64,000 nucleotides of DNA from Cylindrotheca closterium (Eukaryota > Bacillariophyta > Bacillariophyceae > Bacillariales > Bacillariaceae): NCBI GenBank assembly GCA_933822405.4, contig CAKOGP040000557.1, forward strand, positions 310,955 to 374,954, read 5' to 3'. A program made the translations under genes and the position numbers. Below the pieces are notes generated by a model. That model worked only from the letters and a program-made list of their open reading frames with translations, made no database searches and was not told the DNA's origin. Shown here piece after piece: positions 11,093-55,890 of this stretch; positions within the stretch are counted from its first letter, which is position 1; each line of letters opens with the position of its first letter.

Positions 11093-11590
11093 ATGCCAAT
11101 CCTACCCACCATTGCAACTCCTTTTGGCTCTGAACTAAGCTTGAGCGACCTGTTTGCCATTGATGACACCAGGCGAAAGAGAATCGATGCAAATTCTTCC
11201 AAAGATTCCCATGACACCATTGAAACAACATCCTGCTCAAAATGGAGCTTCAGTTTCCTCGAGGCCGAGGTATTGACACCCAAGAGTATTCTGAAGAAAG
11301 CAACAAACAGCAGTGGAAGCATCGACACGAACGAGGACGAACACTTGCAATCTTGGATTGAACAGCCCATTCCCGGTTGTATTGAGTCATCGATCGGCTC
11401 CAGCAATAGGCAAAGGCAGTACAGAAGAAGGATCTCGGGCCAGTCATCCAACAAGTACTATGCGTGCATGAAAAGACGTTTCCTTGGAAGACAGACACGC
11501 AGGAGTAGACAAGAACCAAGGGTTCGTCAAATAAGAACTGAGAAGACTGTAGAAGAACAATGGGTCCGCACCTGCAGATTCTTGTGGTAA
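11093..11590 (+). CDS. Tandem small basic protein, copy 1
   Basis: 165 residues from the ATG at 11093, which matches the start context of copies 2 and 3. I know no family. An acidic/polar N-terminal half carries LFAIDDTRRKRI, SKDSHDTIE and SILKK; the centre has SWIEQPIP; the C-terminal half is strongly Arg/Lys-rich and ends EKTVEEQWVRTCRFLW. The same order of motifs is kept in the copies at 12695 and 14447, and the last 13-14 residues are nearly invariant, which argues for selection on the protein. No signal peptide or membrane segment. The basic tail would suit a nuclear or nucleic-acid-binding protein, but this is only composition. Confidence 0.75.
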   Translation: MPILPTIATPFGSELSLSDLFAIDDTRRKRIDANSSKDSHDTIETTSCSKWSFSFLEAEVLTPKSILKKATNSSGSIDTNEDEHLQSWIEQPIPGCIESSIGSSNRQRQYRRRISGQSSNKYYACMKRRFLGRQTRRSRQEPRVRQIRTEKTVEEQWVRTCRFLW

Positions 11591-12694: not shown

Positions 12695-13171
12695 ATGTCT
12701 ACTCGTATCCATAGTATTGAGATGCCGTTTATTTCTGAATTGAGTGGCTTGTTGGCCATCGACGACATCAAACGAAAGAGAATCGAGACAGATTCTTCCA
12801 CGGACTCCCATGACACCATTGATACAGCATCCTACTCTGAAGGGAGCTTCAGCAGCATCGAAGCCGAGGCGTTGGCCCTCAATAGCATTCTGAAGAAAAC
12901 AGAGAGCAAGGAAGGGGTGATTAAAGACAACGATAAAAACTGGCTGCGGTCTTGGATTGAACAGCCCGTCCCATCAACGACCTCCCTCAGAATAAGGCGC
13001 AGACGAAGAAGAAGTACAGCAATCGAGTCATCGCCCAGCAAATTTGAGTGTGTGAAGACTAGTTTCCCTGGAAGGGAGGGGCGTAGGAGTAGACGAGAGC
13101 CAAGGGCCCGTAAACCAAGAACTGAAAAGACAGTCGAGGAACAATGGGTCCGCACCTGCAGATTCTTATGA
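12695..13171 (+). CDS. Tandem small basic protein, copy 2
   Basis: 158 residues, ATG at 12695. Shares with copies 1 and 3 the blocks LLAIDDIKRKRIE, SHDTID, SILKKTE, SWIEQPVPSTTSLR, SFPGREGRRSRREPRAR and EEQWVRTCRFL. It is closer to copy 3 than to copy 1, and both 5' and 3' flanking DNA is shared with copy 3, so copies 2 and 3 look like a recent duplication of a unit of about 1.75 kb. The final Trp of the other two copies is absent because the stop comes one codon earlier. Function unknown. Confidence 0.75.
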   Translation: MSTRIHSIEMPFISELSGLLAIDDIKRKRIETDSSTDSHDTIDTASYSEGSFSSIEAEALALNSILKKTESKEGVIKDNDKNWLRSWIEQPVPSTTSLRIRRRRRRSTAIESSPSKFECVKTSFPGREGRRSRREPRARKPRTEKTVEEQWVRTCRFL

Positions 13172-14446: not shown

Positions 14447-14923
14447 ATGCCTATCCACAATACGCAGACGCCATTCAGTTCTAAATTGAGTGGTCTGTTG
14501 GCCATTGATGACACCAGGCGAAAGAGAATCGAGGCAGATCCTTCGTCCAAAGACTCCCATGACACCATTGATACAATATCCTGCTCTGAAGGGAGCTTCA
14601 GCAGCCTCGAAGCCGAGAATGCAATGGTCCTCAAGAGCATTATGAAGAAAACAGAAAACAAGGAAAGGGTTATTGAATGCAACGATAAAAACTGTCTACG
14701 GACTTGGATTGAACAACCCATCCCATCAACGACCTCCCTCAGAAGGCGCAGAAGAAAAAGTACAGCAAGCGAGTCATCATCGCCCAACAAGTATGAGTGT
14801 GTGAAGACTCGTTTTCCTGGAAGGGAGGGACGGAGGAGTAGACAAGAGAGAAGGGCCCGTGAAGCAAGAACTGAGAAGACTGTAGAGGAACAATGGGTCC
14901 GCACCTGCAGATTCTTGTGGTAA
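14447..14923 (+). CDS. Tandem small basic protein, copy 3
   Basis: 158 residues, ATG at 14447. Carries the same blocks as copies 1 and 2: LLAIDDTRRKRIEA, SKDSHDTIDT, SIMKKTEN, TWIEQPIPSTTSLRRRR, RFPGREGRRSRQERRAR and EEQWVRTCRFLW. A three-base insertion of Ser near SSKDS and a change of SILKK to SIMKK are the main differences from copy 2; all differences keep the frame. No known domain. The pattern of in-frame differences supports a coding role for all three copies. Confidence 0.75.
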   Translation: MPIHNTQTPFSSKLSGLLAIDDTRRKRIEADPSSKDSHDTIDTISCSEGSFSSLEAENAMVLKSIMKKTENKERVIECNDKNCLRTWIEQPIPSTTSLRRRRRKSTASESSSPNKYECVKTRFPGREGRRSRQERRAREARTEKTVEEQWVRTCRFLW

Positions 14924-37795: not shown

Positions 37796-39151
37796 CTAGA
37801 CATCAACCTTTTCAGATACATCAGTATTATCCAAGACGATGTCCACGTTCTCCGTCTTTGCTTCTGGTGGCTTCATTTCGCCTCCCTCGGTAGTAGCTTC
37901 CAGCGAGACCTTCTCTTGGCACTGCTGAGGCATCATGGGATACGGGAAAGGAAAAGAACCGTACGGTTGGGGCATAGATTGAGGAGCACCTGTAATGATG
38001 TACAGTAACATATAAGAAATATAGCAATTTTTTCAGCAGCTGCGTCTTCAAAACATACCATTCTTTCCAAATTGCGCAGCAGCGTACGGATGCAGTCCAG
38101 GAGGATGAGTTTGAGCAATCGTGTATGGGCCTGCAACTCCGGCAGGCATCGGGTACATGTATGGTGTAAACATGTGAGGTGGTATCATGTGGTGCATAGG
38201 AATATGCTGTGGAAAATTGCTTGCTACATCTGGGAGTGTTGGAAGGGAGTAGAAATCTGGCTCCGAATCTGGGTCGTCGGGTTGTTTTGGAACTCCCTTG
38301 ATTCGAACTCTCTGCATATTGACGCAGAGGCCTGGTCGTCCTCTTAGAAATCGCTCATGATAATAGCCTCCAGTATCCGGACCACGAGTGATTCGTTTGA
38401 AGCCGTACAAATTTAACTGTCGTTGAAAGCTTTGGACTCGGGTTTGCCGAAAGTATCTGGTCATTATCTCTGCTTCAAATCTTTTTGGTTTGTGAATATT
38501 GAACGCTCTCCCATGTGGACAGAATGATACAATATCAGCCTTTCCTTCATATTCTGTTTGTCTTAGCATTCTTTGGAAAAAGGTGAGTGGATGCATACCG
38601 GTAGATAGATTGTCGATACATGTCCATATGCATCATTCAGAACAAACGTACCTGTGCAGCTTGACTGGGAAAACTTCCATAACCCCGCCCCGATTCCTCC
38701 CGTCAGGAACGGGGTCCGAGAGTTTGGAATAGTCTTTATAGCCACCCTTGGATTCCTCCTCCTCAGGTGTACCGGTATCATCATCCTTGCTTCCCACAGC
38801 GTCCCCCGTCAAGCCTCTTACGATAGCTTGATAAGGTGGAACGTATTGGACGTACGGGTTCGGGAGCTGAGGTTGGGCTTGAGGATAGTTGGGCATGGGG
38901 GCGGCGATAGTGCTGCTCTCTTGGCCTTCCGAAACCTTGCTCTCACTAGAATCACCATATTTCTCCTTGTCTACCGGTATCGCGGGAGGAATAGAGCCTT
39001 CATCTTTGCGTTCGGGATCCCCTTCCGATCGTGTCACTTCAGGAGTAGATTCTTCTCCCTTCTTTTCAGTCTTCACGTCTAAAGCTTCCTTGCTTTCTGT
39101 TGATTCAGTCAGGTCCTCTGCAGCACTCATAGTCTCGCTTTCAGCTGTCAT
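37796..39151 (-). CDS. Heat-shock-factor-type transcription factor, gene A
   Basis: Exons 38652..39151, 38059..38570 and 37796..37989 on the minus strand, 401 residues from the ATG at 39151. An acidic, Glu/Ser/Thr-rich N-terminal region of about 150 residues precedes the HSF DNA-binding domain. The domain reads FPVKLHRMLRQTEYEGKADI, VSFCPHGRAFNIHKPKRF, then SFQRQLNLYGFKRITRG and GGYYHERFLRGRP. An intron splits the domain inside KLH|RML. The usual Trp of the ISW motif is Phe here (VSFCPHG). After the domain the protein is Met/Pro/His-rich. No heptad oligomerisation region is obvious. The nuclear role and targets are unknown. Confidence 0.88.
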
Positions 39152-39606: not shown

Positions 39607-40995
39607 CTAGTCCAATAGGCGACAAAGGACGCGGGAGAGTTCGGCATCGCTGGACAATGCGTTATCTCCAATAGGATCAAAAATGTTGCTAAAGTCCACT
39701 GCTTGTTGCACGCTGTTGTTGACAGAATCTTGAGAAAAGCTATCAAGCAGCAACTCGCTGATTTCATTATCATCGAGTGAGTTTTGGTTGGGCAACATTG
39801 GGGGCATTTGATACTTGGCGGGACTGGGAAGTCTTGCAGCAGCCAAGCCGGGATGGATTAGGCTTCTAGACATGGTTGCAAGTGGTGAATAGTTGGAAGA
39901 GTTTTCAACAATGGTTGCTGCAGCCTGGGGCAATTGTTCTTGGTAGGACTGTCTCCAGACATCTTGTTCTTGTTGTGGCGAGGATGCGAAGGGTGTTGGG
40001 GCAATGGCTTCGCGGGCGTACATTTGATTGGGGTAACCATCATCTGAGTTATCACAATCACTAGTTTGAGGAGTGACATGCATGGGAGACTTGACAGGAG
40101 GCTGTTGTTGGAGGAAAAGAGAGAGCATACAGGTTAGGCGATTGATTCATTTTCTTCCAAGAATTTCAAGGTAGTACTTCGTTCTACGTACCATCAAGTA
40201 GAAATTGGGTTCGCGTTCGGGGCTACTGGCAGCCTTGAATCGAGTGCCCTTCACCTTGGTGCGGACCATGCGATTGCAGAGGAATGTCTTGCCGCGAAGA
40301 AAGAGTTCGTGGTAGTAACCACCACTGTCATCACCACGAGTGATGCGGTTGAATCCATATAGATTCAATTGCCGTTGAAAGCTGGTGAGCTTGGTCTGGC
40401 GAAAGTATCCTGGCATTACGTGATCAGCAAACTCTTTGGGCTTGTGAATCACAAAGCACCTTCCATGAGGTTGCCATGAGATGATATGGCTAAGTCCATC
40501 GGCTTCAACTTGGTCCAAGATAGCGTGAAGCTTGATAGGGAAGGAAATGGAGACTCCACCACGGCGATCGGTGGGGTCAGCTTGATCATATTCTTCCGTA
40601 TCATTGGCGTGATCGTGATAGTCGTGGACCACAAAGTGACGATCATTTTGCTTGGCAGTCTTGCCTGGCTTTTGAGGTTTGCGACGACGCTTAGGCTTGG
40701 GCTTTGTTGGAATGGCGCTTCGGGCAAGCTGGTAAGATTGCAAGGCAGAGAAAGTAGTTGGGATTCCGTAAGAAGGACCTGTGTATTCCGCCTTTCCCGT
40801 GGGCATCGTGGAGTTGTTGTCCGTTTGGACAGTTCGTGTTGGGACAGTCTCTCGTGCTTGATTGGCCAAAGCAGATTCATTTAGACTGTTTGCCATGAGA
40901 TATTGAGCATTGACTGCTCCTGTTTGGAGCTCTAGAAGCTGTTGCGCTCGTGCTCGACGACGGAACGCGGCAATGGTGCTGTTGGGATTACACAT
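39607..40995 (-). CDS. Heat-shock-factor-type transcription factor, gene B
   Basis: Exons 40192..40995 and 39607..40101, 90-nt intron, 432 residues. Before the DNA-binding domain lies a basic patch, KPKPKRRRKPQKPGKTAKQN, a likely nuclear signal, and then DRHFVVHDYHDHAND, shared with gene C. The domain reads FPIKLHAILDQVEADGLSHI, ISWQPHGRCFVIHKPKEF, SFQRQLNLYGFNRITRG and GGYYHELFLRG. The intron follows EPNFYLM just after the domain, the same place as in gene C. The second exon is Gln/Pro/Ser-rich with an acidic C-terminal segment (FSNIFDPIGDN), which resembles FRNIFDPN in gene C and may be an activation motif. Confidence 0.9.
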
Positions 40996-43318: not shown

Positions 43319-44616
43319 CTAAACTTGGGTCAAGAGTTGTTCCAGAATGTTTCCGAGCTGTTCGTCATCTTCGATCTTCTCTGGAATTTGCATGTTTGGA
43401 TCAAAAATGTTACGAAAGTCGTCCATGGCATTCCCGTTTTCCAGGAAAATCTCATCAATGGCAGCATCAAAGGCATTATCATCCGAGGCTGGGGCCTTGG
43501 GAGCTTGGAAATCAGTCATGAAACCAGCGCCCATGAGAGGAGTTGGCTGCATTTGCTGCTGCTGGGGCATCTGATAAGCGAATTGGTCTACAGCAGACAC
43601 GCTTAGGGAGGGCAAGCTTGGAGTCTGGATGGAAGACATGACTGGAAAGTTCAACCTCAAAGCAGCAGGAGGCATGCTGCTGGTTTGAGGAAGACTTCTC
43701 ATCTGCTTGGGACTTTGGTAGCTTCCATCTTCCACACTGGATTCATCGGATGTTGGTGGGGTATGTGTGACAGGATTCTGAAAGGGAAGAGTTGAAAGAA
43801 AAGAGAGATGTTAGCACAATGTATTCACGATTGGATTGCTTCAAGCTTTCCGCTTGTCATTCACAACTCAAAACTTACCATTGTATAGAAGTCAGGCTCA
43901 TTATCAGGACTGCTGGCAGCCTTATACTTGGTTCCCTTGATCTTAGTTCTGCACATGGTCTTTGCGAGAAAGACTTTTCCCCGTAGGAATAGCTCGTGAT
44001 AGTAACCCCCATTGTCCTTGCCTATCGTCAGCCTAGAAAACCCGTACAAGTTCAACTGTCGCTGAAAGCTTGTGAGCTTGGTCTGACGAAAGTATTTGGG
44101 CATGACATAATCAGTGAATTCCTTTGGTTTGTGAATCAAAAAGCACCTTCCATGTGGCTGCCACGATATAACATGGCTCAAACCATCTTCTTCCACCTGA
44201 TCTAGAATGGCATGAAGCTTGATAGGAAAGGACATGGAGACTCCTCCACGGCGTTTTGAAGAGGGAACGTCCTGCAGGTCGTTCTCCGGGACATCATTTG
44301 CGTGATCATGATAGTTGTGGACCACGAAGTGACGATCGTTTAGTTTGGCTGTCTTGCCTGGCTTTTGGGGCTTGCGACGGCGTCTTGGCTTCGTGGCATC
44401 TTGCTTGGCTCCCATAAAAGGACTGTCCTGGACAGATTGAGGCATGCTCATGGGCATGGCGCTACGAGCATCCCCAGCGGAGGAGCTCATCATGAGAGGC
44501 ATAAAGTTGCTTTGAAGGCGCTGAGAGAGCAAAGAAGGAGTCTTGGAAATCATCGAGTTAGGATTGGCCGTGGCCAAAGACCTAGGGCCTCGTCTTGCGC
44601 TGTTGGTAACACACAT
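43319..44616 (-). CDS. Heat-shock-factor-type transcription factor, gene C
   Basis: Exons 43879..44616 and 43319..43777, 101-nt intron, 398 residues. Close paralogue of gene B: basic patch KPRRRRKPQKPGKTAKLN, then DRHFVVHNYHDHAND, then the DNA-binding domain (FPIKLHAILDQVEEDGLSHV, ISWQPHGRCFLIHKPKEF shifted to VISWQPHG, SFQRQLNLYGFSRLTIG, GGYYHELFLRG). The intron follows EPDFYTM, matching gene B. The second exon is Pro/Gln/Met-rich and ends with NAMDDFRNIFDPNMQIP and an acidic tail, comparable to the end of gene B. Nuclear transcription factor; targets unknown. Confidence 0.9.
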
Positions 44617-45138: not shown

Positions 45139-48110
45139 CTAGCCTCCCTTTCGAATTGGTGAAAAGTTGGAGGGAGGTTTCCATCCATGCTTTTTCATTT
45201 CTTCCAAAAAGTAATTGGAAGGGCCGTCATCAAATCGCTCCAGTACCATTTCAAAGAACCTTCGAGCACTCATCCAATCTCGAGCATAATACTTTTCCAA
45301 TCCTGAGGAAAAGTCTTGAATGACAGCCGTAGTGTACTTTTCTCGGATCATTCGAATATCTTCTTGGAGCCATTCGCGGTCTTTGTATTGTTGGACTCCC
45401 GTGGGAAGCTCTAGTTCCTTTTTGTCGGGAGCCGGTGTTGTCTTGGCTTTTTCCTTTTCAAACATGCCCGAGGCGTCGGCATTGTTGGCCGTTTTCAACT
45501 CGTCACTGGCGCCACTACCCCTACTCATACTCATGCGACGGCCAGGTCTTCGTTTGGCAAAGGACTGGTTCGTATTTTTTGGCTTTTCTTCTGGAGTGCC
45601 TTGATTCTTCTTCCACAATGTGCTCAAATCCATATCAAAGGTGAGCAGTTCCATTCGCATTTCCATTTTCTCATCAATCGAAGGCTCGTAGGTTTCATCT
45701 TCATCTTCTGGAAAGTACACTTGATCAATCTTGCGGCAACGGCGTTGGATTTTGGGATCCAACAGGGTATAGAAACTATCGGACACTAGCATTTTCAAAC
45801 CGTATTGCTTGGTTGACGATTCCAAAAACTCGGCCTTTTCCACAGCCTCGCTTACATAGGTAGCATCAATCTTTCGTTGAGATCCAATGGCACCTTGGAC
45901 AGCCTTTCCAGCGTGTATGCCAAATCCCATTTGGACAATGGCACCGGATCGCTTCTTCATTTTCGCTAGCAAAGCATTCCGGGCGTTTTCGGACATGGCC
46001 TTCATGTAGAAATCATCGTACTGGAGGGCCATGCAGATCTTGACCACGGACAATAGGGCCTTGTCGGCTTGATTGTGTTTGCATGTCAAAGTGTAGGACG
46101 TGTCATCATCGTCCAGCAGCCAACTCACAAGAAAGGCGTCTCCAACATTCTTGTTGGCAGAACCTCCGTAAGAGTGACAAATGGAATGAACCACGGCCGC
46201 AATACGGTTGGTAAAGACAAAAACTTCTTCTTGCAAACTCTCAGTGGCATCTGTGAACTGACGGATATCGCAAAACAGAAAAATACATGATACGGTGGAA
46301 CCCTGTTCGTTCAAAATCAGCGTATTCGTTTTCTGGCCCTTTTGCAAGTTGTTCCGGATAATCTCGACTCCAGCGCTTCCAAATCCCACTTTCATGAGAT
46401 TTCCAATTTGCAAAATTGTTGACATTAGAAAGGCAGTCTCCATTCCTTTGAGCACATCCTTAGTCCACTGGGATTTGTCCGCAATGATATCCTCTTCAAA
46501 CAGAAACTTTTTGAATCGAGAGTTGTTTTGGTATCCCAAGGGATCTAGCGTCAACATCCCCAGTAGCCGAACCATGCGTTCAATAGGAGTAATAACCAGC
46601 GTCATGATAGGCCCAGCGAATGCAGCAACACCCAGGAACCAAATGAGGCAAGAGAAAATGGTGGCAAAGAATTGAATCCGAGCTTCGTCCACCCGCTCCT
46701 CGCGAAAGACAAACAGGCCCTTGGAAATGTTGCCATCAACGTCGGTGACAGTAATTTGAAGTTTCTCTCGTTCCCGCAGGTCGTTGATGATGTAGCCAAC
46801 GCCATATTCAAAAGGTGTCTCGACACTTTTGGTTTGGTATTCGAATAGACCTGGAACGGAAATTCTGGCCGCATCCAATGCCCTTTCAATTGTATAGTTG
46901 CCAGTGTTGACAGCATTCACACTCTGACCATGCAAAACTACCATGGCAGCAGGTGCGGTTGCTTTGTTCTCAAAGTACGAAAATAGAAGCGTCAGCAGTA
47001 AACTGGCCAAAATCGTGATGGCCAACCTTTGTCCTGTTATTTCTGCCATGGCCCTTCCAACTTGAGTTTGTTCTTTGATATCCATAGTCGAAGAGTTTCG
47101 AAATCGTGGTCCGCCATTTGTTGGTTGTCCATTGGCTCCTCTCATACTGTGTAGTCTCGTCATGCTCATTTTCCATCTCCAGGCTCTTTGAATTTTAATG
47201 GCTGCTAGGTGACGTTTCAGATCACGATTTGGATCCGATACCAGTCCAAAATAGTGCAGGGCTCTCTTTGCAGGGCTGTATCGGACACCGATTCCCTCTG
47301 CCTTGAGTTTGGCTGCAGCGGACAAGTCCACTCCTTCCATGTCACTCTTTTTCATTGCTGCTCGTCGTTCTTTGAAGCGTTCATAATGCCAAATTGGGTT
47401 ACACCTCTTGAGATAAAAGTAAAAGTTGATTTTGCTAGAAATATCAATCACTTTGTCAGAAGGAATCAAACGGGCGATTCGAGCGGCCTTGGGTACCAAA
47501 ACGAGCAACTCGGGGCTGAAGGAAACTGGGACTTTGCTGTTCACTTGATCAAAATTTGTCTGGCAAAGGAAAGGTAGGGGTAGACAGTGAGATTTGTGTA
47601 TATTTCGAGATCAAACCAATGTCACTGAAGCAGTAATTCACATTATCCAATCCAAACCCAACCAACCCAACTTACCGGTACTCCATAAGCATCCAGCTCA
47701 ATATCAATCGTTGGAGATTCAAACTCTTCTTCGTTGATATAAGAGATGTCGTACAGCATTGCGAAAGATGAAACGACGTCACACCAAAACATAAATGATC
47801 CAATGCCAAACGACCTTGAAGATTGTCCTTCCTGCCGTTGCCGATTCCAGCACGTGTTGAATCCAAAATATTCTGGGTTGATCACCATATTCATGATTGT
47901 GTCGATAACAAAAACCGCAAATGCAACCGTGTATAAAATATCAAAGATTATGTCAGCCTCTTTTGGAAAGAATATAAATTGAATGGATGATCCAAAGAGT
48001 AAGAGGACCATAGCAATTAGAATGGTAGCTTTCCATATCGGGCTTCGAACAACTTTGTACATGAACCTGCTGATTGGGGTGCGATGTAACGGAACATTCT
48101 GTGGATCCAT
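45139..48110 (-). CDS. Nucleotidyl cyclase with voltage-sensor-like domain and IQ motif, paralogue 1
   Basis: Exons 47676..48110 and 45139..47559, 116-nt intron, 951 residues. Four helices near the N-terminus: S1 ATILIAMVLLLFGSSIQFIF, S2 IIFDILYTVAFAVFVIDTI, S3 GSFMFWCDVVSSFAMLY, and S4 VPKAARIARLIPSDK, where K-x2-R-x2-R is followed by Pro. An IQ motif (IKIQRAWRWKM, ~266) follows. A helix at ~321-342, an extracytosolic region of ~100 residues and a helix at ~445-470 precede the class III catalytic domain (~565-745). Metal-binding Asp residues are in FLFCDIRQFT and NVGDAFL. The base-selecting positions read Lys (NKNVGD) and Asp (RKIDAT), predicting ATP. The usual transition-state Asn/Arg are Glu and Phe (SEAVEKAEFLES). 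A Ser/Lys-rich linker and helical tail end the protein. Confidence 0.88.
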
Positions 48111-51025: not shown

Positions 51026-54000
51026 ATGCGGAGGTCTATGCATACCAACAATTCCTCAAGCTTTGGTGCTGGAGATAGTGTCTCCATGTCACGCAGTTCC
51101 CAGGCGTTTCGGTCTTCCATTATGCTCGAAAGTTCCGTATCCGCCCAATCGAATGCAAGGTCCTGCTGCACCAATTGCTGGGAATCAACCACTATGAAAA
51201 TCATCAGGCTTCTTATGAAGAAGGCCATTCGCTCGGTGGTATGGAGAGCGCTGCTGATTATTTTGTCAATATATCTCTTATTTGGTTCTCAGATTCGGCA
51301 CTTATTAATTCCATCATCTATGGATGGTGCGTTTGACACTATTTCTTTGGTAGTCTTTGGATTTTTCATTCTTGACATGATCATACGAGTGATGATATAT
51401 CCAACTTACTTCAGTATTGGTTGCTGCAATACTAGTGGTGTGAATGGTGGAAATGATATTCAAACTGGTTGTGTAATTGGAAGTTTTGTGTTTTGGTGTG
51501 ATCTTGTGTCTACCATTACTTTACTCTATGACATTTCTTGGATCAACAAAGATGAATATAGTGTGAGGGAGATTGAAATTCAACTGAATGAATTTGGAAT
51601 ACCGGTAAGTGCCCGATGAAAATCAGATGCCATCTTGTACATGTGTTGGCCGACTAGTTTTCTGACAAACGGTTTTACCCAATCTAGATTGCTGGCGTTG
51701 GTCCCCACAGTAGGCTCGGCTTGGGGGAAGTGGAAATCGAATTATTGTTGACCATTGCCCGTACTGCTCGAGTTGTTCGGTTCATTCGATCTCGTACAGT
51801 GGTGAACATGAGTAACAAAGTGAACTGGTATTGGGCATTTGAAAAGTTGCGATGGCTTGACCCATTCTATTGTCGACGAAAGCTACGCAAGAAGAAGAAA
51901 CCAACCCAAAGGAATTCTCTGGGTATGGCAACCGAGCACAATCCACGTGCTGGAATGGGAACTGCAGCGTATCAGAGGGGAATCTCCGCTGCGGTTCAGG
52001 TTCGGGAGGAAATGGAAGCTAGACAAGCTAGAGAATCGTCGAAGCGATGGTCTGTGATGAGAGTATTGCAAACTATGGGTTTACGAGATAGCGATAAAGG
52101 TGCACTGTCGGAAAATGAGGCAGCGAAGCGGATTCAGCGGGCCTGGCGAAAGCATTTCAAAGCCGGTCAAGGCTCGTACAGTAGCGAAAGTTCCGACTTG
52201 CCAGACACTGGTTCAGTAATGGGTGGGAACTCGAGAAAGAGTGGCACCTTTCGAATTGCTAGTTCTCGATTCCAGCAGAAGTCTGGAACACTGCAGGAAT
52301 CACAAGTTGGTAGTGATATGAGAGAGCTCACGGGACAACGGGTGGCATTAGGGGTTCTTTTTTCTCTAGTATTCACAGTGCTGTTCACGTACACAGAGCC
52401 GTCAACAACAACAGAGTCCGCAATGATCGTGCTCCACAACCAAACGAGAAATCTTGCGTTTGAACGACCCGTTCTTAATGCTGCCAAAGATTCATCTGTT
52501 CCACATCTATTCAAATACAAGACATCTAGGGACCATGACTTTGATCTGCCTTTGACTGACATTAATGGAAACGAGCTCAAAGAACGCGATCAGCTTGTTG
52601 TGACGGTGATCGATCCCGACGACCGAAAATCGATTGGATGGTTCTCAAATCGTCGATTGGAAACTCAAAAGGCTCTGACGTCAATTGTTGCAACCTTTTT
52701 CATCATCATTATTTGGTTCGTTGGAATGTCAGCATTTGCAGGGCCGGTCATGGTACTTGTTGTCACACCGATTGAGAGGATGGTCAGGCTCTTGGGCATG
52801 TTAATGCTTGATCCACTGGGGTATCAGTCAACGACGAAGTTCAAGAAGTTCCTCAGGGAAGAAGACGCACTAATCCAAGGGACTCGATGGACCAAAAAAG
52901 TTTTGAGGGGGATGGAAACTTCGTTTCTCATGTCTACAATTCTGAGAATTGGATCTTTGATGAAAGTTGGCTTTGGTGGTGCTGGAGTCGAAATCATTCG
53001 TAACAACTTGCAAAAGGGCCAGACCAAAAATGTGCTGATTCTTAGTTCTCAGGGTTCCACAGTCTCTTGCATCTTTCTGTTCTGTGATATTCGTCAGTTC
53101 ACCAACGCAACAGAAAGTCTGCAAGAAGAGGTTTTCGTTTTCACAAATCGAATCGCCGCGGTGGTTCATTCGATTTGTCATTCCTATGGTGGGGCTGCAA
53201 ATAAGAACGTTGGTGATGCTTTTCTGCTCAGTTGGTCACTTGAGGATCCTGAGAGTAGTCGAGTATCGAGAGCTCGGAGTATGGGAGACAGCGGTCTCAG
53301 AGCTTCCAAGGAGCAGGCTGACAAAGCACTGCTCGCAGTTACAAAGATTAGCCAAGCGCTGTACTATGATAAGTTTTATCTGGAACCGTTGAGTGAAGTT
53401 GCAAGAGCCAGACTAAAGGAGAAGCTACTGAAAAAGAAGACCGGCCCTGTTGTCAAGATGGGTTTCGGCTTGCATGCTGGAAAAGCTGTCCAAGGTGCCA
53501 TTGGTTCGCAGCGAAAAATTGATGCGACGTATGTTTCCGAAGCAGTCAACAGAGCTGAATTCCTTGAATCAGAAACGAAGACATATGGCTTGCAGCTTCT
53601 TATGTCGGGCATTTTCCACAGCCTTCTGACCGAAAGCACGAAGAGGCGTTGCAGAAAAATTGATCAAGTGTATGTCCCAGATGACGATGATGAAGACGAT
53701 GAAGACGATGGCCATTGGAGGGACGAGGATGAGTTGATTCATTTACATACGTTCGACATGGATATCAGTGCAATATACCGAACGCCTCAACCACGAAAGA
53801 GTGCTCCAAAAACAGACATGTCATCCGACGGGGGATCAAGTGATCTTGAAAAAGGCCGTAACAAGCGTTTGGAACGTGTTCGGTCTAACCGTAACATGCG
53901 GAACCGTCGGCGATCGTCCCTATCCCTTCGCCCAAGCGGAAGACTTTCTCTTTCCGTTTCGGAAGAGGTACAATCGGCTGTAATGGATGGTGCAAGTGTC

Positions 54001-54327
54001 AGCTCAATGCGGACCGCTGAGGAGCCTTCTGATTTCAGTGGACCTCAAGATCTCGTTTTGCCGCGAGGCCCTGCTATATACAACAAAAATGCGTGGCTGT
54101 CACCAGAGATGAAACGCATGCGCGAAAAATACGTACAAGGTCTCTTCTTTCAAAACTATGCGAAGGGTTTGAAAGCATTTTACAACAAAGATTGGGACAC
54201 GGCGAAGCAATGCTTCCAAACGGTACTCAATGAATCAGATGATGGGCCGTCTCGTCATTTCTTGAAGAGAATCAAGGAATGTAACGGAGTGCCACCCAAG
54301 GACTTTGTGCCCTACAGGAAAATGTGA
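51026..54327 (+). CDS. Putative voltage-sensing, IQ-motif adenylyl cyclase, paralogue 2
   Basis: Exons 51026..51604 and 51688..54327, 83-nt intron, 1072 residues. A Ser/Cys-rich N-terminus precedes four helices: S1 ALLIILSIYLLFGSQI (~70-92), S2 DTISLVVFGFFILDMIIRVM (~100-123), S3 GSFVFWCDLVSTITLLYDI (~152-173) and S4 LLTIARTARVVRFIRSRTVV (~212-230). S4 has Arg at i, i+3, i+6 and i+9, the voltage-sensor pattern. No pore loop follows. An IQ motif (AAKRIQRAWRKHF) lies near 338-350. A receptor-like module (helices ~412-430 and ~524-550) leads to the class III cyclase (~650-830): FLFCDIRQFT and NVGDAFL hold the metal Asp residues; Lys in NKNVGD and Asp in RKIDAT predict ATP. The transition-state Asn is kept (SEAVNRAEFLES) but the Arg is Phe. 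Disordered basic and helical C-terminus. Confidence 0.9.
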
Positions 54328-54489: not shown

Positions 54490-55890
54490 ATGGACACTGA
54501 TGATGCTCTTGGACCATCCCGAGAATCGGAAGACTCGGCGCTTTCAAAGGTTCTGCTTATTCTCTTATCCTCTGTGATCGCCATTCTTGTTGCTTCAGTA
54601 AAATGGAAGCATAGTTTCAAGCTCTTTCTTATTCCGAACAACAATGCAACAAAAGCACAACCAAAGACTTCTCCACCAACCGTTCCCTTTATTTTGATTC
54701 GAAAAGAAGGAGATGTTCTCCCATCCCGGAAAATCCGGAAGTCAATGGATAAATACAAGAGCGATACCTATCATGCTCTCAAAGGACTGAGTCAACAAAT
54801 GGATCAAGCAATCGAACTTGAACATGGACTTTCGATTCATCAAGGAGCCAAGCTATCCACAAAGATCCAAAGAAGAATACAAAAACTGTCCGATATCTTT
54901 GATCACAATGAGAAGATAATTCGAAGTCTTCTTGCTCCCATGGATTTTATTACATCTCTTCCAGATAATGGAATCATCCAGTCGAAGGGAGAAATGTTGA
55001 AGAGAGACGAGGAAGTGTATTCAGAAAGTGGACAAAGCAACCCGAACTATCCGAATCCATCCACATTACCCCATTCATCAAAGCAGAATGCAACAAACTT
55101 GCTAGAAGAGAATGTCTATGATATGACGGCCCAAATCATTGCCCATTTGGTGCGAGATTGGTCAGCTGCTGGGTCCAACATTCGGGAAAGCCTTTACTTG
55201 TGGGTTTGTCGGGAACTAGTGAAACGATCCAGGCATCGACAAGACCCTGTACTGGTCCCTGGTGCGGGGATGGGACGACTTGCCTATGATATATACTCAC
55301 TTGGCTTTACAGTCGAGGCCAACGAGATATCCCCGGTGATGGCGGCGGCCGCAAAGTCCATTCTAATAGAGAATAGTTCTGGTTTGATATATCCATATGC
55401 CTTGGATGCAATGTCCAATGAGGTAGAATCTTCGAGGCGATATGATAAAGTGTCCTTTCCAGATGTCCCTGTGGTACATCTGTCAGAAAAATTCTCGCTG
55501 TCCTTTACGATTGGAGACTTTGCCGGAGCCTATTATTCAACTCAAGCTTCGACTTTTGGTGCCGTCACGACCTGCTTCTTCATTGACACTGCTACAGATA
55601 TTTACGAATATATTGCATTGATTAAGGGCTTGCTGAAGCCAAAGGGTATCTGGATAAATGTTGGTCCGGTCCAGTGGCATGCAAATGCTCTGTTGCGACC
55701 GTCGGCAGATGAATTGAAAGATTTGCTCCTAGCCTTTGGATTCACAATCATCACTTGGAGTATCGACAACAAACCCGTCCCCTACCGACATGACAGCGCC
55801 TCCGACGGAAGCGGAAGAGATTCATTTGTACGATCCACAAGTTTTGAAGGCTATCGTCCACTGAGATTCGTGGCCATTCGAGAATATTGA
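54490..55890 (+). CDS. N2227-like methyltransferase (carnosine N-methyltransferase family), membrane-anchored
   Basis: 466 residues from the first ATG (54490); the frame upstream lacks an ATG. An N-terminal helix (VLLILLSSVIAILVASV, ~20-36) anchors it, which is not typical of soluble carnosine N-methyltransferase. The family core begins near YDMTAQIIAHLVRDWSAAG and contains the SAM loop VLVPGAGMGRLAYDI (~253-267), FTVEANEISPVM, SFTIGDFAGAYY, and VTTCFFIDTATDIYEYI followed by LLKPKGIWINVGPVQWH. These match the N2227 family by eye. The substrate in diatoms is unknown; in animals members methylate the histidine of carnosine. The C-terminal RPLRFVAIREY is also typical. Confidence 0.87.
   Translation: MDTDDALGPSRESEDSALSKVLLILLSSVIAILVASVKWKHSFKLFLIPNNNATKAQPKTSPPTVPFILIRKEGDVLPSRKIRKSMDKYKSDTYHALKGLSQQMDQAIELEHGLSIHQGAKLSTKIQRRIQKLSDIFDHNEKIIRSLLAPMDFITSLPDNGIIQSKGEMLKRDEEVYSESGQSNPNYPNPSTLPHSSKQNATNLLEENVYDMTAQIIAHLVRDWSAAGSNIRESLYLWVCRELVKRSRHRQDPVLVPGAGMGRLAYDIYSLGFTVEANEISPVMAAAAKSILIENSSGLIYPYALDAMSNEVESSRRYDKVSFPDVPVVHLSEKFSLSFTIGDFAGAYYSTQASTFGAVTTCFFIDTATDIYEYIALIKGLLKPKGIWINVGPVQWHANALLRPSADELKDLLLAFGFTIITWSIDNKPVPYRHDSASDGSGRDSFVRSTSFEGYRPLRFVAIREY

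Follow-up and report, generated by a model that had tools for sequence, protein, structure and literature searches.

Several protists are known to join cyclases to voltage sensors. The adenylyl cyclases of Paramecium, Tetrahymena and Plasmodium have a voltage-sensor domain fused to the cyclase (Weber 2004), and cAMP production upon a change of membrane potential has been reported in Paramecium. In 2025, two "bimodal" proteins of Phytophthora parasitica, PPTG_13136 and PPTG_13761, were presented as sensor-cyclases without a pore (PMC12223298). Excitability itself is not foreign to diatoms, since Odontella fires action potentials (PMC8002053). As for the catalytic side, the Asn-x-x-x-Arg motif (NxxxR) has been discussed as crucial to the transition state of class III cyclases and as missing from heterodimeric systems with a single site, namely tmAC, sAC and NeoR; the metal-binding aspartates are supplied by the opposite protomer, and NeoR with its motif restored still did not regain activity (PMC12264004).

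Here, we analysed a stretch of 64,000 nucleotides of the diatom Cylindrotheca closterium (hereafter the window, at its full length). It contains a gene, AC1, whose product has in succession a four-helix sensor-like domain, an IQ-like motif, a fifth helix, an outer domain, a sixth helix and a class III cyclase. AC1 could quite possibly be the pore-less, sensor-bearing subunit of a membrane adenylyl cyclase built from two complementary subunits, a proposal in which the voltage response, the heterodimer, the production of cAMP and the calmodulin input are what we infer.

AC1 is a single two-exon gene filling positions 51026-54327 of the forward strand, with a product of 1072 residues. Exon 1 (51026..51604, +) encodes residues 1-193, i.e. 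the N-terminal tail and helices S1, S2 and S3, and exon 2 (51688..54327, +) encodes residues 194-1072 and the stop, from S4 through the C-terminal helical repeat. The intron (51605..51687, +) has 83 bases, GT..AG borders and phase 0, and the relative P0002 has nothing inserted at its position. The start codon is M1 or M5; P0002, which lies on a 3.5 kb contig, starts at M5 and matches AC1 from there onward at 87%. The GenBank protein P0001 of C. closterium is identical to the predicted AC1 across 974 residues. Yet this public model begins at Met99, lacking S1, and extends past AC1 into the next gene, which could hint that exon 1 came from another gene or that AC1 and its paralogue AC2 were pseudogenes. 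We find this scarcely credible, given the full-length match of P0002 and the intact frames of both genes. Moreover, 25 of 128 related proteins (one being P0001) carry sensor and cyclase in one chain, their alignments starting ahead of AC1 residue 120 and reaching past residue 800, and five of them have MMETSP transcript names (P0056, P0078, P0080, P0081 and P0101), which argues that exon 1 is part of the AC1 gene. Together with a matching intron in AC2, these spanning relatives bear out the earlier sequence-only reading that one gene covers the interval, and they largely dispose of the concern, voiced there, that its first exon might belong elsewhere.

The part of P0001 beyond AC1 has the precomputed domain PF07942, which we take to be of methyltransferase type. 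This methyltransferase-type gene lies downstream of AC1 (54490-55890, +) and is fused to it in P0001; the MAG protein P0003 has the same precomputed domain set as this fusion model.

The first four helices lie on the forward strand. S1 (51236..51307, residues 71-94) is the helix of model 1, described below, renumbered to AC1 through the alignment with P0002. Model and conservation place S2 at 51314..51397 (residues 97-124, with F114-x-x-D117-x-x-x-R121), S3 at 51485..51529 (residues 154-168, with D159) and S4 at 51727..51789 (residues 207-227, with R218, R221, R224 and R227). An F-x-x-D-x-x-x-R in S2 and an Asp in S3 form the usual charge-transfer layout of voltage sensors. We counted conservation, in AC1 numbering, over the rows having a residue at the column in a 187-row alignment; its rows, aligned automatically, comprise incomplete proteins, near-identical entries (P0001 being AC1 itself) and some proteins with translated introns, and one protein alone, P0128, was dropped beforehand. 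In S4, position 218 is Arg or Lys in 136/146 rows, R221 is kept in 146/147 and R224 in 145/150, and position 227 has 104 Arg and 7 Lys among 155 rows. The aromatic F114 of S2 is found in 41/49 rows, D117 in 46/50 and R121 in 37/50, while position 159 of S3 has 41 Asp and 6 Glu among 48 rows. The arginines at every third residue of S4 and the charged residues at sensor-like places of S2 and S3, both noticed previously in the single sequence, are thus conserved among diatom relatives. When AC1 residues 56-260 are shuffled 20000 times, the pattern [RK]xxRxxRxx[RK] turns up by chance in 200 of the trials. It occurs 10 times in the 30917 residues of the window's long open frames, the AC1 S4 being the most hydrophobic occurrence.

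Profile searches gave less. The sequence profile of the sensor found nothing among PDB sequences up to E 10, and the Ion_trans search that had been suggested for this segment succeeded in part: 2 of 16 sensor segments matched (best E 0.0027), but the other 14 did not. Structure was more informative. Two AlphaFold models were used, model 1 of P0002 (57 rows) and model 2 of P0076 (82 rows), the latter with what is probably a translated intron within its S3-S4 loop; both are predicted with high confidence over S1-S3 and with less over S4. Foldseek by itself returned zero matches at E <= 0.001 for either model, and the sensor matches came from re-alignment of its lists with VIA-align, a tool that cautions on helical bundles. 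With model 1 the sensor of Ci-VSP ranks first among the 202 chains aligned. With model 2, voltage-gated superfamily channels make up 49 of the best 50 entries; 31 of the best 50 alignments are confined to the sensor, and the others extend into further parts, some at 13-15 A. The anticipated likeness to Ci-VSP is therefore seen in model 1, whereas model 2 resembles almost only channel sensors. Since the top structural matches are sensors, these models support a four-helix S1-S4 fold. Conservation and the two predicted structures likewise support a lone, pore-less voltage-sensor fold fused to a cyclase, the central proposal of the sequence-only reading.

Might this sensor be a conductor of ions or protons in its own right, or a channel that the cyclase regulates? 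Lone sensors are able to conduct protons (PMC13095418) and the authors of the Phytophthora study leave a channel option open (PMC12223298). But in AC1 some 170 residues separate S4 from the fifth helix, a folded outer domain stands between helices 5 and 6, and no GYG/GFG-like selectivity filter is present in AC1 399-567 or AC2 315-485, which makes conduction highly improbable. A six-helix channel was rejected for lack of a pore.

Between S4 and the cyclase, conservation marks an IQ-like motif (52120..52158, +; residues 338-350, AAKRIQRAWRKHF). Its IQxxxR core is kept across the family, with I342 and Q343 each in 172/175 rows and R347 as 165 Arg and 8 Lys of 174, but the Pfam IQ profile stays below its cut-off in AC2 and is not reported for AC1, so that the IQ motif claimed earlier holds as a conserved core and not as a Pfam domain. 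This motif is our one reason to infer that calmodulin may regulate AC1. The fifth transmembrane helix follows at 52303..52386 (+; residues 399-426; sequence and model), then the outer domain at 52387..52650 (+), with two helices and four strands in the models. A sixth transmembrane helix continues into a cytoplasmic signalling helix at 52651..52809 (+; residues 515-567 from the models; 517-569 for the signalling helix in model 1, numbered as in P0002). Beyond the cyclase there is a C-terminal helical segment (54085..54279, +), its helices taken from the model and TPR-like by eye.

The cyclase domain (53056..53688, +; about residues 650-860) is the only Pfam domain of AC1 at cut-off (PF00211, 28.5 bits against 21.9). 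Its metal-binding aspartates are invariant, D660 in 176/176 rows and D703 in 170/170, which upholds the earlier assignment of a class III domain with both metal sites. The proposed Lys/Asp pair of base selectors fared less well: the Lys is there (K699, 170/170), but the second selector is a Thr (T807, 165/165). Bacterial adenylyl cyclases, photoactivated ones among them, align with the cyclase profile and likewise have Thr at this position. Lys/Asp at the base position are associated with adenylyl and Glu/Cys with guanylyl cyclases (PMC2576301). The Lys at the base selector supports an adenylyl type for AC1, as far as residues can tell.

The transition-state residues are another matter. The Asn position is Glu in 152/165 rows and Asn in 5, namely AC1, its GenBank copy P0001 and three close relatives; the Arg position is Phe/Tyr in 160/167 rows and Arg in 0/167. 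AC1 thus reads N..F (N814, F818) where the family mostly reads E..F, and the full motif is absent from every family row, AC2 included. From the residues, class III membership of AC1 appears to hold by fold and not by a complete active site. The earlier idea of a complete, self-sufficient cyclase finds no support as it stood, and the domain instead looks like a C1-type half that requires a partner. Could AC1 still be, in a slightly modified form of the earlier view, a voltage-sensing adenylyl cyclase that works as a plain homodimer and has other, non-canonical residues doing the work of Asn-x-x-x-Arg? The invariance of Lys/Thr along with the metal aspartates would fit, as Lys/Thr should be superfluous in a C1-like half, and AC1 keeps Asn814 in front of a position that is Arg in 126/165 rows. 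Yet the replacement of the transition-state Arg throughout the family and of the Asn in most rows, the absence of NxxxR from the heterodimeric single-site systems cited above and the presence in the same genome of proteins with the complementary residues (see below) render it unlikely. With NxxxR missing, the ordinary homodimer was set aside as first-choice reading.

AC1 has a paralogue, AC2, lying head-to-head with it on the reverse strand (exon 1, 47676..48110, -; exon 2, 45139..47559, -). AC2 has 951 residues, 44% identity to AC1 over 1022 columns, the same layout and an intron at the matching place, likewise between codons. We searched the genome (47.6 Mb, 572 contigs) with the first 650 residues as query and found AC1 and AC2 alone (4 exon matches). 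In C. fusiformis, P0007 and P0135, one of each type, share a scaffold by name, so that the pair looks conserved there. In AC2 the S4 is weakened (KAARIARLIP). Pro at position 227, as in this AC2-type S4, occurs in 28/155 rows, and the nine of these with position 121 visible all have Asn (8) or His (1) instead of the S2 Arg. Sensors of this family can thus weaken, by loss of the fourth S4 charge and of the S2 Arg. One may then wonder if the fold, while real, is no functional voltage sensor at all, being a structural or other-binding module that leaves the role of true receptor to the outer domain, which has high model confidence in both models. The strong retention of the S4 charges, the S2 Asp and the S3 Asp in the remaining rows speaks against this, and we consider it rather improbable. 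Beside AC2 we also noted a cluster of open frames that by eye are heat-shock-factor-like (38048-38596, 40147-40995 and 43861-44616, -).

The named members of the family are diatoms, from Cylindrotheca, Nitzschia, Seminavis, Fistulifera and Mayamaea to Entomoneis paludosa, Attheya septentrionalis, Thalassionema frauenfeldii and Odontella aurita. Nearly all relatives have a precomputed PF26726, as do the 120 listed of the 523 matches in a protein search with the cyclase region of AC2. P0128 matched in the profile search at E 1.4e-12 without PF26726, and its Pfam numbers presumably stand for bacterial-type sensor domains. Among viral contigs, 600 pattern matches yielded 0 confirmed relatives.

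If AC1 is a half-enzyme, where is the other half? The part of AC1 from helix 5 to the cyclase, used as genome query, found besides AC1 and AC2 only two further genes (6 matches), C124 (C124:~202000-206800) and C542 (C542:~28500-24000), or L025 and L026, on contigs other than that of AC1/AC2. The membrane half of C542 finds itself and C124 and no third gene in the genome (3 matches). By eye, their open frames encode an N-terminal multi-helix part, then two helices with an outer domain between them, followed by the signalling helix, the cyclase and a similar C-terminus; ahead of the membrane part the two have a segment in common (GDTVLVF../GDAVLVF..) that resembles, again by eye, a small fold of SH3/Tudor type. 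Their cyclases are narrowly above the PF00211 cut-off (23.0 and 23.4 against 21.9). In both the first metal Asp is replaced by Ala, and the second by Pro (C124) or Glu (C542), and both retain Lys, Thr, Asn and Arg. On residues, their losses are the opposite of those of AC1 and complementary to them, which makes the two proteins candidate partners encoded in the same genome. By eye they have an S4-like helix (R-x-x-G-x-x-R-x-x-[RK]), but the stretch over which they resemble the AC1 sensor is limited to S1-S2, so that we claim no working sensor for them.

How unusual are these patterns? As a control we took 33 full-length and 70 N-terminal partial cyclases out of the 170 PF00211 matches in the genome, and scored the 33 at the Asp, Lys/Glu, Asn and Arg columns. 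Both Asp are kept in 32/33, and all of Asp, Asp, Asn and Arg in 30/33; two (L044 and L049) have lost only the Arg, like AC1 itself, and in L059 all four positions are degenerate. The pattern of C124 and C542 is found in none of the 33. At the position of the AC1 Lys, Glu is present in 33/33 full-length and 70/70 partial controls, and the adenylyl-type Lys is restricted to AC1, AC2, C124 and C542 among the 107 cyclase stretches examined; this exclusivity applies to those stretches, as the remaining PF00211 matches, many of them C-terminal pieces, lie outside the sample. Many of the 103 guanylyl-type stretches sit in neighbouring clusters, e.g. on contigs 534, 535, 539 and 414.

These elements can be arranged into a mechanism for a two-subunit enzyme. 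A change in membrane potential would shift the conserved S4 arginines past the S2 and S3 acids, in a direction that we can only presume. This motion would pass through the S4-IQ linker to helices 5 and 6 and the signalling helix, which would alter how the cyclase domains meet. AC1 or AC2 would be the C1-like half, supplying the pair of metal-binding aspartates, and C124 or C542 the C2-like half, supplying Lys, Thr, Asn and Arg; a dimer of an AC1-type subunit and its partner would then contain two sites, one of them able to work on ATP and the other degenerate. AC2, with its weaker sensor, might be a second subunit with a different voltage range or none, and perhaps the small outer domain is where a ligand binds. 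Our confidence in the split enzyme is restrained by the two controls sharing the Arg-only loss of AC1 and by the lower model confidence in S4. A stronger version, in which adenylyl cyclase here is a voltage-gated enzyme divided between two types of sensor-bearing subunit, AC1/AC2 on one side and C124/C542 on the other, these being the only adenylyl-type cyclases of a genome otherwise rich in guanylyl-type ones and putting cAMP directly under membrane potential, is conceivable but doubtful.

Coupled to cAMP, a sensor without a pore would offer diatoms a direct route from voltage to biochemistry. A split, sensor-bearing adenylyl cyclase, if true, would be an unusual natural instance in which voltage controls an enzyme that is not a phosphatase, and possibly a tool to convert voltage into cAMP. 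Elsewhere in the window, we observed three adjoining frames (11093-11590, 12695-13171 and 14447-14923, +) for a small protein with TEKTVEEQWVRTCRFL at or near its end.

How does AC1 compare with the known systems? The cyclases of ciliates and Plasmodium, as described in the accessible text, carry a K+ channel pore, whereas AC1 has neither pore nor filter. Ci-VSP, the best structural match of model 1, and its relatives likewise let a lone voltage sensor drive an enzyme; this enzyme is a phosphoinositide phosphatase, and they have neither a cyclase nor an outer two-helix module. Raphid pennate diatoms, as far as we know, have no flagella. The bimodal proteins of Phytophthora, a stramenopile like diatoms, share with AC1 an N-terminal Ion_trans/S4-type sensor without a pore helix and a C-terminal cyclase, but they are reported in flagellated or ciliated organisms, mainly on the flagellum (PMC12223298). 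If the diatom and Phytophthora families are one, a purely ciliary role cannot apply to every member, given the pennates. Compared by description only, the N-terminal domains of the two Phytophthora proteins are given 5 and 3 helices, and the section concerned mentions neither an outer domain nor an IQ motif nor a split site (PMC12223298). The layout is less isolated than it seemed earlier, given the Phytophthora proteins. Among the titles, abstract openings and passages listed, bioRxiv being outside them, we found no sensor-cyclase in diatoms and no split site in such proteins. Three features would be new among sensor-cyclases, as we found none of them described in print for such proteins: a putatively split catalytic site, an IQ-like motif and an outer domain.

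A parallel for the split site is found in the heterodimeric rhodopsin guanylyl cyclases, RGC/NeoR, where sensor-bearing membrane cyclase halves, one of them lacking NxxxR, form one active site per dimer (PMC12264004). Unlike AC1, these are fungal proteins that sense light and make cGMP, and their partner genes are clustered, while neither C124 nor C542 shares a contig with AC1/AC2. A loss of the metal Asp in the partner, as in C124 and C542, is not among the features that the accessible text describes for RGC/NeoR. In mammalian tmAC (C1/C2) and in soluble guanylyl cyclase (GC), one site is built from complementary degenerate halves, as we propose for AC1; by the descriptions available, tmAC has no S4 sensor and holds both halves in one chain, and soluble GC is not a membrane sensor.
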